10,267 nucleotides of DNA, from assembly GCA_902773265.1 (NCBI GenBank), contig CACYDZ010000003.1:1-10267 (forward strand). The letters are read 5' to 3'. The stretch is from an uncultured Ruminococcus sp. (GTDB lineage Bacteria; Bacillota; Clostridia; Oscillospirales; Acutalibacteraceae). Each line of letters begins with the position of its first letter. Position 1 is the first letter of the stretch. Of the stretch, positions 4,713 to 10,267 are shown in pieces. Below the pieces are notes generated by a model. It saw nothing but the letters and a program-made list of their open reading frames with translations. It did no database searches and was not told the DNA's origin. A program made the translations under genes and the position numbers.

Positions 4713-5294
4713 ATGGAAGAAAAAACGATTATTCCCGCCGATACACAGGAAGAAGAGGAAGAAGTCACCCTTACACAGAGTTGTTATGAATGGTTACATA
4801 CTTTTATTATTGCTATTGCTCTGGTAGTTCTGATACTGACTTTTGTTTTCCGACTGGTTGATGTTGACGGAGAATCTATGATGGATACCCTGCGGGATAA
4901 AGACAGATTGATTGTCACCAACTTTCTTTATCAACCCGAAAATGGCGATATTGTTGTTATCAGTCACGGACAAAATCTGAATAAACCCATTATCAAGCGT
5001 GTGATTGCCACAGAGGGACAAAGTCTGAAAATTGATTTTCAGAAAGGAATCGTATCTGTCAATGGTGCGGTCATTGACGAACCCTATATCAAAGCTCTCA
5101 CTACCAAACAAGGTGATGCCGAAATTCCTGAAGTTATTCCTGAAGGTATGGTATTTGTCATGGGGGATAACAGAAATCATTCTACCGACAGCCGTTTTTC
5201 TACGGTAGGTCTTATCCCCGTAACCAATATTATAGGCAAAGCACAATTCAGGGTCAGTCCTTTCAACAGTTTCGGTAAAATCTATCAGGAATAA
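4713..5294 (+). CDS. lepB: Signal peptidase I
   Basis: This 193-residue type I signal peptidase of the short Gram-positive (SipS-like) form cleaves signal peptides of exported proteins at the outer face of the membrane. An acidic N-terminal cytoplasmic tail (1-24) precedes one membrane segment (about 29-48). The nucleophile is Ser55 in VDGESMMDTL and the general base Lys95 in IIKRVIA. The conserved GDNR box is at 151-154, continuing into HSTDSR. GGAG (4697-4700) lies 12 bases before the ATG, slightly long. The rplS-lepB order is common in Firmicutes. The next gene follows within about 15 bases and is probably co-transcribed. Confidence 0.96.
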   Translation: MEEKTIIPADTQEEEEEVTLTQSCYEWLHTFIIAIALVVLILTFVFRLVDVDGESMMDTLRDKDRLIVTNFLYQPENGDIVVISHGQNLNKPIIKRVIATEGQSLKIDFQKGIVSVNGAVIDEPYIKALTTKQGDAEIPEVIPEGMVFVMGDNRNHSTDSRFSTVGLIPVTNIIGKAQFRVSPFNSFGKIYQE

Positions 5295-5311: not shown

Positions 5312-6193
5312 GAAACTTATTATTGTCAGGTATGTCCACGAAAATGTCATGCGTTGCGAAATGCTGACAGCGGTAACGGATTTTGTCAGATGGGAAATAA
5401 CCCTGTCGTGGCAAGAGTAGCTGAACATATGTGGGAAGAACCCTGTATCAGTGGTACAAGAGGCAGTGGAACGATATTTTTCAGCGGTTGTGTGATGAAG
5501 TGTGTATTTTGTCAGAATTACAAAATTTCTACCGAAAATTTCGGCAAAATACTCACTCCCTCTCAGCTTGCCGACTGCTATAAGTATCTGGAAGAAAAAA
5601 ATGTGCATAATATTAATCTGGTCAATCCTACACATTTTATCCCCTCTATCATCGCCAGTCTGGATATTTACAAACCCAATATACCTGTTGTCTACAACTG
5701 CGGGGGATATGAAGATGTGGGTATGCTGGAAAAACTGAAAGGCTATGTGGATATCTATTTACCTGATTTTAAATATGCTGATGATACGGTTGCCTTACAG
5801 TATTCCAAAGTCAGAAATTATTCGGAAACGGCTTTGCTTGCCCTGAAAGAAATGTTTACCCAACAACCACAGAATATTTTTGATAAAGATGGTATTCTGC
5901 AAAAAGGTGTTATTGTCCGACATTTACTTTTACCCTCCCATACTAAAAATGCTATGGCGGTTATTGATTTGCTGAAAAAAAATTTCGGAACAAACATTAC
6001 CATCAGCTTGATGGCACAGTATATTCCCTGCGGAAAGGCTCATCTCTATCCCAAAATTAACCGCAAAATTACGAAAAGAGAATATCAGAAAGTTCTGCAA
6101 TATCTGGAACAGTCGGAAATCAGTGGCTATATTCAGGAACTTTCTTCTGCTGATGATGACTATATTCCTGATTTCAATTTGCAAGATGTTTAA
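5309..6193 (+). CDS. PflX-type radical SAM protein (COG1313 family)
   Basis: The product resembles the uncharacterised PflX group, homologous to pyruvate formate-lyase activating enzymes. From the putative ACG start it has 294 residues, a full family length. Features in order: an N-terminal cysteine cluster (C6, C9, C13 in YYCQVCPRKC, and C26 in GFCQMG), EEPCISGTRGSGTIFFSGC, the radical SAM 4Fe-4S motif CX3CX2C (C61, C65, C68) followed by QNYKIS, then INLVNPTHF, PVVYNCGGYED, VDIYLPDFKY, VRHLLLPSH and SLMAQYIP. Starting at TTG 5354 would delete three of the four N-terminal cysteines, so that start is unlikely. The substrate is unknown; no obvious glycyl-radical partner is nearby. It follows lepB closely and ends at a terminator. 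Confidence 0.88.
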   Translation, partial: TETYYCQVCPRKCHALRNADSGNGFCQMGNNPVVARVAEHMWEEPCISGTRGSGTIFFSGCVMKCVFCQNYKISTENFGKILTPSQLADCYKYLEEKNVHNINLVNPTHFIPSIIASLDIYKPNIPVVYNCGGYEDVGMLEKLKGYVDIYLPDFKYADDTVALQYSKVRNYSETALLALKEMFTQQPQNIFDKDGILQKGVIVRHLLLPSHTKNAMAVIDLLKKNFGTNITISLMAQYIPCGKAHLYPKINRKITKREYQKVLQYLEQSEISGYIQELSSADDDYIPDFNLQDV

Positions 6194-6220
6194 GCGAGGG
6201 TTATCCCCTCGCTTTGTTTT
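6194..6220 (+). terminator. Rho-independent terminator after the radical SAM gene
   Basis: GCGAGGG (6194-6200) pairs with CCCTCGC (6206-6212) around a 5-base loop and is followed by TTTGTTTT. It starts directly after the stop codon and closes the lepB-radical SAM unit. Confidence 0.9.
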
Positions 6221-6231
6221 GCGGGGCGTGA

Positions 6232-6335
6232 GTTAAGGGCTTTGCCCTTAACAATCCTATGAGGGGCTTTGCCCCTCACCCCCACAAACTTTTTGAAAAA
6301 AGTTTGACAAAAACTTTTCCGGCTCACTTCGTTCG
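6232..6335 (+). repeat. Intergenic multi-hairpin repeat, copy A (forward)
   Basis: Three hairpins lie in a row: GTTAAGGGC/GCCCTTAAC (6232-6252), TGAGGGGC/GCCCCTCA (6260-6278) and AAACTTTTT/AAAAAGTTT (6286-6305). A conserved tail GACAAAAACTTTT (6306-6318) and a TCACTTCGTT-type end (to 6335) follow. The same series occurs at 6369-6496, 9101-9227 and 10165-10267. This copy lacks the first hairpin seen in copies B and C. No coding capacity is visible. Confidence 0.85.
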
Positions 6336-6368
6336 ATAATCTTTATCACAAGTTCAGCTTACACAACT
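6336..6368. other. Spacer between inverted repeat copies A and B
   Basis: These 33 bases separate the tails of two copies that point toward each other. They contain only a weak 5-bp stem (TTCAG/CTGAA). I see no promoter or gene. The whole stretch 6194-6525 is thus terminator plus repeats plus the ribosome binding site of the next gene. Confidence 0.5.
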
Positions 6369-6496
6369 GAAAGTTTCGGTCAAGCCTTTGGGGAGGCTTG
6401 TGGGGTTAAGGGGCAAAGCCCCTTAGCGGGATTTTAAAGGGCGGTAGCCCTTTAATCGGCTAAAAATTCCAAACAAAATCTGCGTAAGCAGATTTT
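6369..6496 (-). repeat. Intergenic multi-hairpin repeat, copy B (reverse)
   Basis: Read on the minus strand, all four hairpins are present: H1 AAAATCTGC/GCAGATTTT (6475-6496), H2 TTAAAGGGC/GCCCTTTAA (6434-6455), H3 TAAGGGGC/GCCCCTTA (6407-6425), and H4 AAGCCT/AGGCTT (6382-6399), whose loop reads TTGGGG on the + strand, followed by the GAC..AAACTTT tail (6369-6381). H4 has a different sequence from copy A but still pairs fully. It is placed tail-to-tail with copy A and ends 14 bases before the next ribosome binding site. Confidence 0.85.
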
Positions 6497-6525
6497 GACA
6501 TTATCGTTATGGAGAAATCACCATT

Positions 6526-7536
6526 ATGAAAATATTACTCGTCCTGACAGGCGGAACCATCGCCTGTAAAACACAAAATCATCAAATCAATATCACTTCA
6601 GAAACCGCTGACAGTATCCTTACCGTCTATCAGAACATCAATCCAGACAGTAATACTCTTTTTGAAGTCGTCCAGCCTCTTCATACACTCAGCGAAAATC
6701 ATACCGCTGTTACCTATAATCAACTCATACAATTTCTGTACAAAACCGATTTTTCCTCCTATGACGGTATCATTATGACACATGGGTCTGATACCCTTTC
6801 CTATACTTCGGCACTTGTAGGAATGTTGCTGCCCGATATCTCTGTACCGTTTATGATTACAGCGTCTGATTATCCTTTAGACAATGCAAAGTCCAATGGT
6901 ATCAGCAACTTTTCGGCTTGTGTCAGGTGGATAGAACATTCTGTCTGCAACGGTGTTTTTACCGTATACGGCAAAAAAGACTTTCCTTGTATTTATCTCT
7001 CTACCAGAATTTGTGAGGCCGACCCCGTTACTGATGATTTTTCCCCTTTCGGTGATGGGATTGTCGCCAGATTCCACAACAATCGTATCACCTTTATCAA
7101 CAATGAACTTGTCAATTTGTTGAAAACTTCTCGCCGTCAGCAAAGGTTTTTTCAGCAACCCCCTGTTATCCAAAAGAATGTCCTGCTGATAAAGACCTAT
7201 CCTAATCAGAATTTTTCGGTGTACCGTCTGGAAAACATTTCGGCAGTCGTTATCTATCTCTATCATTCAGGAACAGCTCCTGTTGTCGGGAGTGACACAA
7301 ACATCTGTCACTTTATGCAAAAATGTCGTGAAAAAAATATTCCTGTCTATACCGCTTCTCATAAACGCAAAGCAGATAACTATGTGACAACCATCGAAAG
7401 TGATAAATACACCACGCTGAAAATCTATCAGACCTCTCAAGAATGTGCTTATATCAAAACTTTGCTGGCAGTCAATCAGACCGAATATCTGCCTGATGAG
7501 GTTATCCGTACAGACATTTTCTTTGAACAGGAATAA
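6526..7536 (+). CDS. L-asparaginase-like amidohydrolase
   Basis: This 336-residue protein belongs to the bacterial asparaginase/glutaminase family, which hydrolyses asparagine to aspartate and ammonia. The N-terminal signature LVLTGGTIA (5-13) carries the nucleophile Thr11. The second signature is MTHGSDTLSYTSALVGMLLP (84-103), with Ser88-Asp89 where most members have Thr-Asp. ITASDYPLDNAKSNGISNF (111-129) fits the conserved segment that follows. The C-terminal domain keeps YHSGTAP but is otherwise diverged. There is no signal peptide, so it is likely cytoplasmic. The ATG follows GGAG (6511-6514) by 11 bases. No promoter is evident between repeat copy B and the gene. The gerA-like gene begins 41 bases downstream, probably in the same transcript. 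Substrate range is not certain. Confidence 0.85.
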   Translation: MKILLVLTGGTIACKTQNHQINITSETADSILTVYQNINPDSNTLFEVVQPLHTLSENHTAVTYNQLIQFLYKTDFSSYDGIIMTHGSDTLSYTSALVGMLLPDISVPFMITASDYPLDNAKSNGISNFSACVRWIEHSVCNGVFTVYGKKDFPCIYLSTRICEADPVTDDFSPFGDGIVARFHNNRITFINNELVNLLKTSRRQQRFFQQPPVIQKNVLLIKTYPNQNFSVYRLENISAVVIYLYHSGTAPVVGSDTNICHFMQKCREKNIPVYTASHKRKADNYVTTIESDKYTTLKIYQTSQECAYIKTLLAVNQTEYLPDEVIRTDIFFEQE

Positions 7537-7570
7537 TTCCTTTTTTTCTGTGCAAAACAGTAAAAAGGAA
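7537..7570 (+). promoter_or_regulatory. Hairpin masking the gerA ribosome binding site
   Basis: TTCCTTTTT (7537-7545), directly after the asparaginase stop, is perfectly complementary to AAAAAGGAA (7562-7570), which contains the ribosome binding site of the next gene. CTG/CAG extends the stem inside. With no U-tract after it this is not a normal terminator; it would hide the ribosome binding site in the folded mRNA and may lower or couple translation. Confidence 0.5.
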
Positions 7571-7577
7571 TGATGTT

Positions 7578-9020
7578 ATGAACAATCTATATGCTGTACT
7601 GGATAAGAATGTTGCTTATCTGAAAAAACTGTTTGATAATTCGTCTGACTTTACGGTGAGATATTTACAGACCAAATCAACAAGATGTGCGGTGATTACC
7701 ATAGAAGGTATGTGTGACAAGGAAGTTCTTTGTACAGGCATTATCTGTCCGCTGTTGAAAAGTGACTATCCCGAAACGGAAAGTGTAAGGGACTTACTCT
7801 CTTTTATGGAACACTCTGTACTTTCTCTGGCAGAGGTTTCCCGTTTGGAAACATTTGAAGATGTTTTACAGAACATCATGTCGGGATTTGCGGTACTGCT
7901 GATAGAAAATTGCAGTGTGGCATTGAGTATCGGTGTACAGGGGTACAGTTATCGCAGTGTTGCCGAACCCGACAGCGAACTCTCCGAAAGAGGAAGCCGT
8001 GAGGGATTTGTCGAACCGCTTCATATCAATATGTCACTGCTCAGACGCAGAATGAAAAATCCTAAACTTAAACTCGAAACAATGGTTATCGGGGATATCA
8101 GCCATACGGAAATCTGTCTTTGTTACCTGACGGATATTGTCAGCAAAAGTATTCTCGAAAATCTTAAAGAAAGATTACAGAATATTCATTTAGATACTGT
8201 GCTGGCAAGCGGATATCTGGTGACTTTTCTGGAAGATGATAACGAATATTCTTTATTCAGTGGTGTCGGCATTACCGAAAGACCTGATACTGTCAGCGGA
8301 AAAATTACAGAAGGCAGAATTGCCGTCTTGATTGACGGTACACCCTCTGTACTGATAGTGCCATATCTGTTTGTGGAAAATTTTCAGACAATGGGCGATT
8401 ATTCCTACAAGCCGTATTATGCAACCCTTATCCGTATGATGAAATATCTGTGTTTTTTTGTAGCGGCACTGTTACCCGGAATTTATACGGCAGTAGCATT
8501 ATTCAACCCCGAACTTTTTCCTGAACAAATTCTCATACAGCTGGAAACCTCTATCGGCAATACACCTTTCGGACTGGTAACAGAAATTCTGCTGGTACTG
8601 TTCATGTATGAGATTATGCGTGAGGCAGGATTAAGACTGCCGAAATCTTTAGGACACGCAGTCAGTATTGTGGGAGCGTTGGTGATTGGCGATACTGCTG
8701 TCAGTGCCGGATTGATTGTTGCTCCTACTTTAATGATAGTTGCATTGACGGCGATTGCGTCTTATGTCATTCCCGATTTATATCCGCAGTTGTATGTATT
8801 GAGAATAGGGTTTATTGTCAGCGGGGGATTGTTCGGCATATGGGGAATTGTGCTGTTGTTTTGTGTACTGACGGTCAATCTTTGCGGAAAATCCACTTTG
8901 GGCGTACCGTATACTATGCCGCTTGCACCGTTTAAACTTTCGGGTATGCGTGATGTGATTATACGGGCAGACTGGAAATTTATGGGGAAATTCAGACATA
9001 TTGTCAGCGATACCCCCTGA
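7578..9020 (+). CDS. Spore germination protein, GerA/SpoVAF family
   Basis: This 480-residue protein is of the GerA A-subunit family (GerAA, GerBA, GerKA, SpoVAF), inner-membrane proteins of the spore that sense germinants or assist the response. An N-terminal soluble part (1-285) holds the family segments GSREGFVEPLHINMSLLRRR (139-158) and EGRIAVLIDGTPSVLIVPYL (245-264). Membrane segments follow at about 288-309, 330-346, 362-398 (probably two) and 408-436. The conserved REAGLRLP.SLGHAVSIVGAL spans 348-368. The usual GQAAV is GDTAV here, which may point toward the SpoVAF side; that is inference from memory. No B (permease-like) or C (lipoprotein) subunit gene follows, unlike typical gerABC operons. 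The ribosome binding site AAAAGGAA precedes the ATG by about 8 bases and lies in a hairpin. A strong terminator follows. Confidence 0.92.
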   Translation: MNNLYAVLDKNVAYLKKLFDNSSDFTVRYLQTKSTRCAVITIEGMCDKEVLCTGIICPLLKSDYPETESVRDLLSFMEHSVLSLAEVSRLETFEDVLQNIMSGFAVLLIENCSVALSIGVQGYSYRSVAEPDSELSERGSREGFVEPLHINMSLLRRRMKNPKLKLETMVIGDISHTEICLCYLTDIVSKSILENLKERLQNIHLDTVLASGYLVTFLEDDNEYSLFSGVGITERPDTVSGKITEGRIAVLIDGTPSVLIVPYLFVENFQTMGDYSYKPYYATLIRMMKYLCFFVAALLPGIYTAVALFNPELFPEQILIQLETSIGNTPFGLVTEILLVLFMYEIMREAGLRLPKSLGHAVSIVGALVIGDTAVSAGLIVAPTLMIVALTAIASYVIPDLYPQLYVLRIGFIVSGGLFGIWGIVLLFCVLTVNLCGKSTLGVPYTMPLAPFKLSGMRDVIIRADWKFMGKFRHIVSDTP

Positions 9021-9038
9021 AATATCTGCTCTCAGACG

Positions 9039-9092
9039 GAAAACTTCTTTGTTTTCATCTCTATCACAGAAAACAAAGAAGTTTTCTTATTT
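9039..9092 (+). terminator. Long-stem terminator after the gerA-like gene
   Basis: GAAAACTTCTTTGTTTTC (9039-9056) is perfectly complementary to 9069-9086, an 18-bp stem with a 12-base loop, followed by TTATTT. The stem is AT-rich but very long, and it lies 18 bases past the stop codon, so termination is the likely role. Confidence 0.7.
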
Positions 9093-9100
9093 GACAGAAC

Positions 9101-9227
9101 AAAATCTGCATACGCAGATTTTGATTGAGTTTTCAGCCGATTAAAGGGCTGTCGCCCTTTAAAATCCTGCTAAGGGGCTTTGCCCCTTAACCCCACAACT
9201 TTTTGAAAAAAGTTGACAAAAACTTTT
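9101..9227 (+). repeat. Intergenic multi-hairpin repeat, copy C (forward)
   Basis: All four hairpins are present: H1 AAAATCTGC/GCAGATTTT (9101-9122), H2 TTAAAGGGC/GCCCTTTAA with loop TGTC (9141-9162), H3 TAAGGGGC/GCCCCTTA (9171-9189) and H4 AACTTTTT/AAAAAGTT (9197-9214). The tail GACAAAAACTTTT ends at 9227. It shares the AGCCGATTAAAGGGC block with copy B and the H4 type with copy A. It lacks the TCACTTCGTT end. Confidence 0.85.
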
Positions 9228-9255
9228 AATTATCTTAGCTTAACCTCAGCCAAAA

Positions 9256-9278
9256 ATCATTACAAATTTTGTAATGAT
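9256..9278. promoter_or_regulatory. 23-bp perfect palindrome adjoining the proB -35 box
   Basis: ATCATTACAAA (9256-9266) and TTTGTAATGAT (9268-9278) are exact inverted repeats around a single T. The site ends two bases before the -35 hexamer. Its size and place suit a dimeric DNA-binding regulator, either activator or repressor, of proB. I do not recognise the motif. Confidence 0.5.
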
Positions 9279-9280
9279 AC

Positions 9281-9309
9281 TTGAGAAAATAACAAAATTA
9301 TGATACAAT
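9281..9309 (+). promoter_or_regulatory. Extended -10 promoter for proB
   Basis: TTGAGA (9281-9286) and TACAAT (9304-9309) are spaced by 17 bp, with an extended TG at 9301-9302. The start point would fall near 9316, giving a short leader of about 29 bases before the ATG. Confidence 0.7.
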
Positions 9310-9344
9310 AAATTCCAGTTTGTCGAACCACAAAGGAGTTTATC

Positions 9345-10133
9345 ATGGAAAACAAAAGAATTGTTGTCAAGGTAGGAACATCAACATTGACATATGAAAA
9401 CGGAAAATTAAATTTAAGGCGGTTTCAGCATTTGTGTCGGGTACTAAGCGACCTTCACAATGCCGGGAGGGATATTGTATTGGTCAGTTCAGGAGCGGTA
9501 GGTGTCGGTCTGGGAAAGCTGGGCAGGGAAGAAAGACCGTCTTCTACACCCGAAAAACAGGCATTGGCAGCAGTAGGACAGTGTGAACTGATGTTTATGT
9601 ACGACAAGATTTTCGGGGAGTATAATAATACAGTCGCACAGATTTTGCTGACAAGGAATGTCATTGATGACACCACCTTAAGACAGAATGCCTACAATAC
9701 TTTAGAAACGCTGATAAAGATGAAAATTATTCCTGTCATCAACGAAAATGACAGTGTAGCCACTGATGAGATAGAAGGAGCGAATTTTGGAGATAACGAT
9801 ATGCTTTCAGCAATGGTGGCGAGATTAGTAGGGGCAGATATGTTGGTGATTATGACAGATATAGACGGATTATTTGAAACCAATCCCAGAGTAGACCCAT
9901 ATGCCAAATTACTCAAAAGAGTAGCCAGAATAGATGATGACATTAAGAAGATGGCAGGGGGAACAGGTTCAAACAGAGGAACAGGCGGAATGTTGACAAA
10001 AGTAGCTGCTGCCGAGATGGCCACTAAAAACGGCATACAGTGTTGTGTACTTAACGGCAATAATCCCGATATCCTGTATGACCTGATGGACGGTCATAAT
10101 CCTGGTACAATTTTTGAAGCCGACCCGGTTTAA
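9345..10133 (+). CDS. proB: Glutamate 5-kinase, short form without PUA domain
   Basis: This 262-residue amino-acid kinase phosphorylates glutamate to gamma-glutamyl phosphate, the first step of proline synthesis, in the cytoplasm. The ATP-binding start VVKVGTSTLT (7-16) holds Lys9. Other signatures are VSSGAVGVGLGKLG (47-60), INENDSVATDE (132-142, substrate site), FGDNDMLSA (148-156), TDIDGLFETNP (171-181) and GTGGMLTKVAAAE (212-224). The length fits the kinase domain alone; many homologs of about 370 residues add a C-terminal PUA domain, absent here. GGAG (9335-9338) lies 6 bases before the ATG. Its usual partner proA is not in the window; a repeat copy follows directly, so proA is either beyond the right edge or elsewhere. 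Confidence 0.97.
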   Translation: MENKRIVVKVGTSTLTYENGKLNLRRFQHLCRVLSDLHNAGRDIVLVSSGAVGVGLGKLGREERPSSTPEKQALAAVGQCELMFMYDKIFGEYNNTVAQILLTRNVIDDTTLRQNAYNTLETLIKMKIIPVINENDSVATDEIEGANFGDNDMLSAMVARLVGADMLVIMTDIDGLFETNPRVDPYAKLLKRVARIDDDIKKMAGGTGSNRGTGGMLTKVAAAEMATKNGIQCCVLNGNNPDILYDLMDGHNPGTIFEADPV

Positions 10134-10164
10134 GGACAATGTCATCAACTTAAAAGTGTCATTC

Positions 10165-10267
10165 CAAACGAAGTGAACCATAAAAGTTTTGTCCACTTTT
10201 GGGGAAGTGGTAGGGGTCAAGGGGACAAAGTCCCCTTGTGGGATTTTAAAGGGCAAAGCCCTTTAAT
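10165..10267 (-). repeat. Intergenic multi-hairpin repeat, copy D (reverse), cut by the window edge
   Basis: Read on the minus strand: H2 TTAAAGGGC/GCCCTTTAA (10246-10266), H3 with arms CAAGGGGAC/GTCCCCTTG (10218-10238), H4 CCACTT/AAGTGG with TTGGGG loop on the + strand (10193-10210), the GACAAAACTTTT-type tail, and a CACTTCGTTTG end (10165-10175) like that of copy A. H1, if present, lies beyond the right edge. The copy starts about 30 bases after proB, which has no other visible terminator. Confidence 0.8.

Follow-up and report, generated by a model that had tools for sequence, protein, structure and literature searches.

Our results suggest that the hairpin arms of the window (the whole 10,267-nucleotide stretch of an uncultured Ruminococcus sp. 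that was analysed) are probably relics of a non-autonomous, non-coding dispersed repeat. The unit would be an arm of three or four hairpins followed by an A/T tail, found either alone or in pairs joined tail to tail. Within the genus of the window, a MITE with inverted ends of ~17 bp and AT-rich target duplications of 8 bp would have taken the arm on as cargo and spread by means of a trans-acting transposase of the cut-and-paste type, and in the window's species most copies would be old, with the ends lost and the arms kept. The stems would stay paired through exchange between copies and repair, or through selection on DNA hairpins, and not through RNA regulation. Since most arms carry no ends, our confidence in this account as a whole is moderate.

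The window carries four arms of a multi-hairpin repeat

The preliminary description had listed four copies of an intergenic repeat, and the stems that it quoted were found in place when the sequence was re-read. The repeat is real and has four arms in the window, but A and B together make up one composite (6232-6497, ~265 bp) and are not separate copies, since their tails face each other over a 51-nt centre, which plays the same part in other composite copies. The features, with the evidence for each in brackets, are as follows.

6232..6318, + strand: arm A, one arm of the composite A+B; hairpins 2, 3 and 4 (6232-6252, 6260-6278 and 6285-6306) and tail GACAAAAACTTTT (6306-6318) (sequence, covariance model)
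6319..6369, no strand: centre between the tails of A and B (GGCTCACTTCGTTCG ... AGCTTACACAAC), the recurrent spacer of composite copies (sequence)
6370..6497, - strand: arm B, second arm of the composite A+B; hairpins 1, 2, 3 and 4 (6474-6497, 6433-6455, 6407-6424 and 6381-6400) and tail GACCGAAACTTT (sequence, covariance model)
9098..9227, + strand: arm C, a single arm; hairpins 1, 2, 3 and 4 (9100-9123, 9140-9162, 9171-9189 and 9196-9215) and tail (sequence, covariance model)
10181..10267, - strand: arm D, a single arm cut by the contig end; hairpins 2, 3 and 4 (10246-10266, 10218-10238 and 10193-10210) and tail (sequence; model match marked as cut off)

The common tail that had been proposed is present in each copy, but its letters vary with the subtype: GACAAAAACTTTT in A and C, GACCGAAACTTTC in B and GACAAAACTTTT in D. 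A full arm begins with GTC, hairpin 1 (CAAAATTTGC-TTAC-GCAAATTTTG, whose first C is the C of GTC) and a spacer, continues with hairpin 2 (TTAAGGGC...GCCCTTAA), AATCCYRC, hairpin 3 (CAAGGGGC...GCCCCTTG) and ACCCCAC, and finishes with hairpin 4 (ACTTTTT-GA-AAAAAGT), GAC(A)nCTTTT and then, mostly, AATTGTCATAGC. Among the matches listed (30 tails in the window's genome, G000, and 79 in G003, a congener ~90% identical to the window over two window genes), the number of hairpins varies between arms, and arms without hairpin 1, such as A and D, are often flush-ended at their outermost hairpin. Folded as single-stranded DNA, the stretch 6225-6500 gives -74 kcal/mol (z = -11.1, 200 shuffles). In G003, the orthologous places of A and B hold arms of other subtypes. 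The ORFs that overlap the arms were judged to be chance frames.

Other repeats lie beside the arms. An inverted repeat that fits the terminator pattern (6192-6214) is located just 3' of a gene and before arm A, and an A/T-rich one (9039-9086), which the terminator scan did not list, after a gene and before arm C. At 10136-10178, pieces of other dispersed repeats, of the CATTCYGAACGAAGTGAGGAATCTT and AAGTTGACGACATTGCC types, adjoin the arms; among the matches listed, pieces of these types were also seen beside or between arms near 54,500-54,900 of G003 contig C37.

The repeat is dense in the window's genome and in its congeners

A covariance model, one of the checks proposed for the repeat, was built from a 60-copy alignment (A1), made up of window B and C and of 58 full-length arms out of 59 drawn at random; the remaining one, L128:11767-11902, was removed by hand. 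The model recovered all four window arms, with E-values of 3.1e-25 (C), 2.9e-22 (B), 1.1e-17 (A) and 2.2e-11 (D). Note that C and B are training copies of the model; A and D, which are absent from the training set, scored 99.5 and 65.9 bits. The match of A begins at 6190, so the terminator-like hairpin at 6192-6214 is here taken for hairpin 1. The possibility that the copies are independent terminators was rejected: the arms have their hairpin order, spacers and tail in common, and the model matches A and D without having been trained on them.

The search of the unmasked contigs revealed a dense repeat and not one of few copies. The window's genome holds 123 arms (E <= 1e-4) in 372,667 unmasked bases from 59 contigs, which corresponds to 3.3% of the sampled bases and extrapolates to ~590 arms per genome, and G003 holds 329 arms in 779,888 bases. 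Four of the five congeners searched (G001, G002, G003 and G004) carry the repeat, with at least 39, 18, 48 and 46 matches, respectively, when up to 40 candidates were scored in each; in the fifth, G005, the search found none. Arms crowd the contig ends, which largely explains the fragmentation of the assembly: in the 59 unmasked contigs of G000, 57 of 117 ends have an arm no more than 150 bp away (~10 expected). The window itself stops inside arm D.

Some sister-genome copies have inverted ends, duplicated targets and empty counterpart sites

Some of the G003 arms are enclosed in short elements with the inverted ends CYACCTGWGCGGTTGRAA (CYACCTGWGCGGTTG). With at most one mismatch, we found 105 copies of this end in G003, 26 in G004, 12 in G001, 5 in G000 and zero in G002 and G005, and the reversed control gave 0 in all six genomes. 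A looser pattern (up to three mismatches) gave 36 inverted end pairs 140-470 bp apart, some of which may not be elements, 35 of them in G003 and one in G004. These sister-genome copies are short and have terminal inverted repeats, and the sequences inspected look non-coding. They also show target-site duplications: a perfect 8-mer flanks 12 of the 36 pairs, with ~1 expected, and pairing the flanks of different elements as a control gave 3.2% perfect 8-mers. At least seven of the eight letters are equal in 20/36 pairs (control 18%); a perfect 7-mer was seen in 3 of the 36 and a 9-mer in none. The target is 8 bp long and AT-rich, with the consensus AAAWWTTT. One element, of 464 bp (L242, G004 C221, 1054-1518), carries a perfect 8-bp duplication, AAATATTT, and its hairpin 3 is interrupted by a different repeat.

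Comparison of empty and filled sites between G000 and G003, which had also been suggested, yielded nine clean indels. In three of them, a G003 element with inverted ends faces a G000 site that is uninterrupted and otherwise aligned. One is a G003-specific arm with neither ends nor a clear duplication, one is a G000 arm at a diverged site, one (C61) looks like the partial swap of one hairpin array for another, and three are unrelated to the repeat. The G003 copies with inverted ends, duplications and empty sites behave as MITEs.

The window's own copies, A to D, have no recognisable inverted end, and the only window match to the end within four mismatches is at 5278, inside a gene. Because the search for their own ends failed, they are filed as MITE-related and probably derived, not as proven MITEs. 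Left-end remnants were found 5' of 60 of the 172 arms in G003 (control 1) and of 8 of the 46 in G000 (control 1), where they are weak, and right-end remnants at 50/172 (control 0) and 3/46 (control 1), respectively; 112/172 arms in G003 and 38/46 in G000 fall below the threshold and have no recognisable end. On balance, we prefer to see the window copies as old MITEs whose ends have probably been lost, over arms that never had ends.

Search for a mobiliser

The mobiliser of these elements is presumably a DDE-type transposase. No transposase gene was recognised between the end pairs read in G003, a set that leaves aside the 4.8-kb pair at C1:117858-122673. Neither IS256 nor ISL3 occurs in G003 or G000, and no pair of these ends was seen at three IS256/ISL3 loci of G001 and G004. 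The longer terminal inverted repeat pairs of G003 (C83, C52, C13 and C27) were considered as an autonomous parent and rejected, as they are neighbouring small elements, lone ends or ordinary genes; those of C83, C52 and C13 enclose ordinary genes. An origin in phages or plasmids was rejected too: arm C has no match in the phage and plasmid collections (E 1e-5), and two tail patterns have no exact match in viral contigs.

The preliminary description had pointed to a REP-associated transposase, and this lead came to nothing, with no intact Y1_Tnp in nine genomes. Y1_Tnp matches came from two of the nine, G003 (3) and G000 (1), and every one contains stop codons; decayed IS200-type (Y1) fragments are located at G003 C12:31579-31942 and C29:514-633 and at G000 C241:1451-1585. 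A REP/BIME mobilised by a REP-associated tyrosine transposase would account for these fragments, and for palindromic, intergenic, high-copy units that form composites of alternating orientation. However, this origin is highly improbable: intact Y1_Tnp is missing from those nine genomes, the GTAG/CGTC tetranucleotide is shared at one column by at most 3 of the 60 aligned copies and so does not act as a common tag, and the arms are ~85-130 nt long with three or four hairpins, as against the 20-40 bp given for REPs in the part of PMC3733652 that treats them.

The arm extends beyond the window's genus, and its tail is tied to hairpin 4

In a survey of 150 genomes of the family, in which the best 23 candidates at most were scored per genome under strict filters, the four-hairpin model matched 34 genomes and 32 of 135 genera (E <= 0.001), the window's genus included. 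One genome of another genus, G088, gave at least 149 matches from 150 scored candidates, and six other genera keep the hairpin order unchanged with different letters. Among 200 family genomes, the inverted end is multi-copy only in G000 and G003; it has a single match in nine others, and the reversed control gives a single match in five. We also observed in G088, from the coordinates and from one pair read in L296, arm pairs set head to head ~25-28 nt apart (for example, C12:410958-411231 and C17:108186-108457), the opposite of the tail-to-tail composite of the window.

A second regularity links hairpin 4 with the tail. In copies whose hairpin 4 reads Tn-G-Am-G and whose tail reads GAC(CG)Ak-CTT, the two runs n and k have the same length in 579 of 588 cases (n between 3 and 7), and the best of 1000 shuffles gave 243; these copies are related and hence are not 588 independent events, a few were possibly counted twice where loci overlap, and the pattern demands a T-run, which places C-loop variants such as window B and D outside the count. 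The GAAC and AAAC subtypes include single copies with 4/5/4 instead of 5/6/5, and single copies that break the tie, such as 4/6/5 and 6/6/5, exist. In other genera with other stem letters, the tie was kept in five of six arms examined by eye, and broken in G138 (6 vs 4). The tie would be accounted for by a triple helix or by a hairpin that competes with hairpin 4 (TnG with CAn).

The presence of the arm in many genera where the end is absent or single speaks against the reading of the arms as MITE relics. It would be expected if the hairpin arm itself were the mobile unit, older than the ends, with a putative enzyme that reads the hairpins and the tied tail as single-stranded DNA, and with a MITE that picked the arm up once. 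The abundance in G088, the identical hairpin order in six other genera, the stem-tail rule and the bare G003-specific arm all agree with this. However, the bare arms have no demonstrated boundary or target duplication, intact Y1 transposase is absent from the nine genomes, and most arms share the flanks GTC and AATTGTC, as expected from descent from one composite. We consider a self-mobile arm rather unlikely. A closely related proposal, which we view as unlikely, is that the arm is a family-wide mobile nucleic-acid structure, an exchangeable hairpin array for which the MITE of the window's genus would be a later vehicle, and in which the locked equality of stem T-run and tail A-run would imply an additional fold, either a competing hairpin or an intramolecular triple helix, read by a putative enzyme. 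If the tied hairpin and tail were a recognition signal, they would mark a common and possibly undescribed route of DNA spreading in gut and rumen Clostridia.

Stem changes are usually paired

The preliminary description took the paired changes in the stems to imply that folding itself is kept. The 60-copy count and the orthologous sites bear out the pairing, but exchange or palindrome repair fits it equally well. In the 60-copy alignment, 97.6% of 2145 stem cells are standard pairs (90.0% in shuffles), 16 of 36 stem pairs changed on both sides (8.6 in shuffles) and 166 cells are doubly changed, compared to 52 in shuffles and at most 21 in slid controls. Only 7 cells changed on one side and 51 are non-pairing; pair types are no more numerous than in shuffles (26 vs 27.9). 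Neither few copies, nor a lack of covariation, nor mere terminators, any of which would have spoken against the repeat, was found.

At thirteen arms that are orthologous between the two genomes G000 and G003 (flank identity 83-93%), 345 pairs are unchanged, 22 doubly changed and 7 singly changed; 53 fail to pair in one of the two species and 38 coincide with gaps, the broken class being inflated since swapped hairpins are misaligned. Window A differs from its G003 counterpart (C57) by four double changes, and the pair G000 C36:7434 and G003 C2 by three double changes in one hairpin, with 0 differences at 23 unpaired sites. Window B, C14 and C36:7283 have the look of whole-hairpin replacement. 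Given that G-U intermediates are rare and that several hairpins seem to have been swapped whole, the pairing is explained no less well by copy-to-copy exchange or DNA palindrome repair than by selection on an RNA. Folding, or whole-hairpin exchange among copies, is maintained, and the scarcity of G-U changes may point to a constraint that acts on DNA or on both strands. We infer that exchange plus repair of, or selection on, DNA hairpins keeps the stems paired, rather than RNA regulation. With its hundreds of paralogues and its orthologous sites, the repeat provides a natural data set on which process, selection, exchange between copies or palindrome repair, preserves DNA hairpins.

Gene context does not favour a regulatory RNA

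Using simple ORFs of at least 80 aa, 15 of 245 arm clusters on nine G003 contigs lie inside ORFs, in DNA that is 85% coding by the same ORFs. Arms are present in 161/469 codirectional, 39/86 convergent and 28/83 divergent gene pairs of G003, with no orientation bias relative to the genes (97 opposite, 85 same). Mostly intergenic, in all types of gene pair and unbiased, this placement is the pattern expected of a tolerated mobile repeat rather than of a terminator or leader.

These data also bear on the structured RNA that had been proposed, a reading that fared poorly here. A structured RNA, or a regulator resembling a terminator, that is retained at the ends of genes would explain the conserved, compensated stems and the intergenic placement, and hairpin 1 of C does fit a simple terminator pattern. 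However, no other arm hairpin does so in the two stretches scanned, which do not include D, all Rfam matches are below the gathering score, G-U changes are rare with 7 one-sided cells, and the arms, lacking orientation bias, are also found between divergent genes. We regard such a regulator as very unlikely, and retain the reading of the arms as MITE relics.

Relation to known repeats

In kind the repeat is ordinary, a dispersed MITE-like sequence; what is unusual is its form, an array of hairpins found in many genera and turned into a MITE in one of them. Of the affinities suggested at the outset, MITE-like holds for the family through the sister genomes, but not for the window copies, which have no ends, and a strict REP/BIME identity finds no support. 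Like the prokaryotic MITEs QMITE2 and ERIC, as presented in the portion of PMC10969869 that concerns them, the repeat is short, non-coding and intergenic, with inverted ends, target duplications (7-9 bp for QMITE2 of Coxiella), stable stem-loops and copy numbers up to hundreds. Unlike them, again within that portion, its core is an ordered, exchangeable hairpin array, found in many genera without ends, and most copies, those of the window included, have none. With REP/BIME and REPtrons, as covered by the same part of PMC3733652, it shares palindromic units, intergenic location and alternating orientation, but differs from them in having longer multi-hairpin units, and neither the GTAG/CGTC tag nor an intact Y1 transposase. 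The stem-loop families of 40 bacterial genomes (Bcr1, Clop-1, Clot-1) are likewise dispersed stem-loop repeats, but the sections of PMC2267715 at hand describe no such multi-hairpin family, a distinction made by description and not by sequence. Judged by title and start of abstract, none of the open-licence papers that the literature searches listed describes the repeat, which may nonetheless have been published.

Finally, two features were noted elsewhere in the window. A 40-codon ORF at 2477-2599 (MEKEKYIPTKMEIVEFDEEDIITNSDGIEYEEDELPLIGP), read by eye, resembles a small modified-peptide precursor. An imperfect inverted repeat (2354-2430), with two 36-nt arms that are 75% complementary, lies between this ORF and the first large one.
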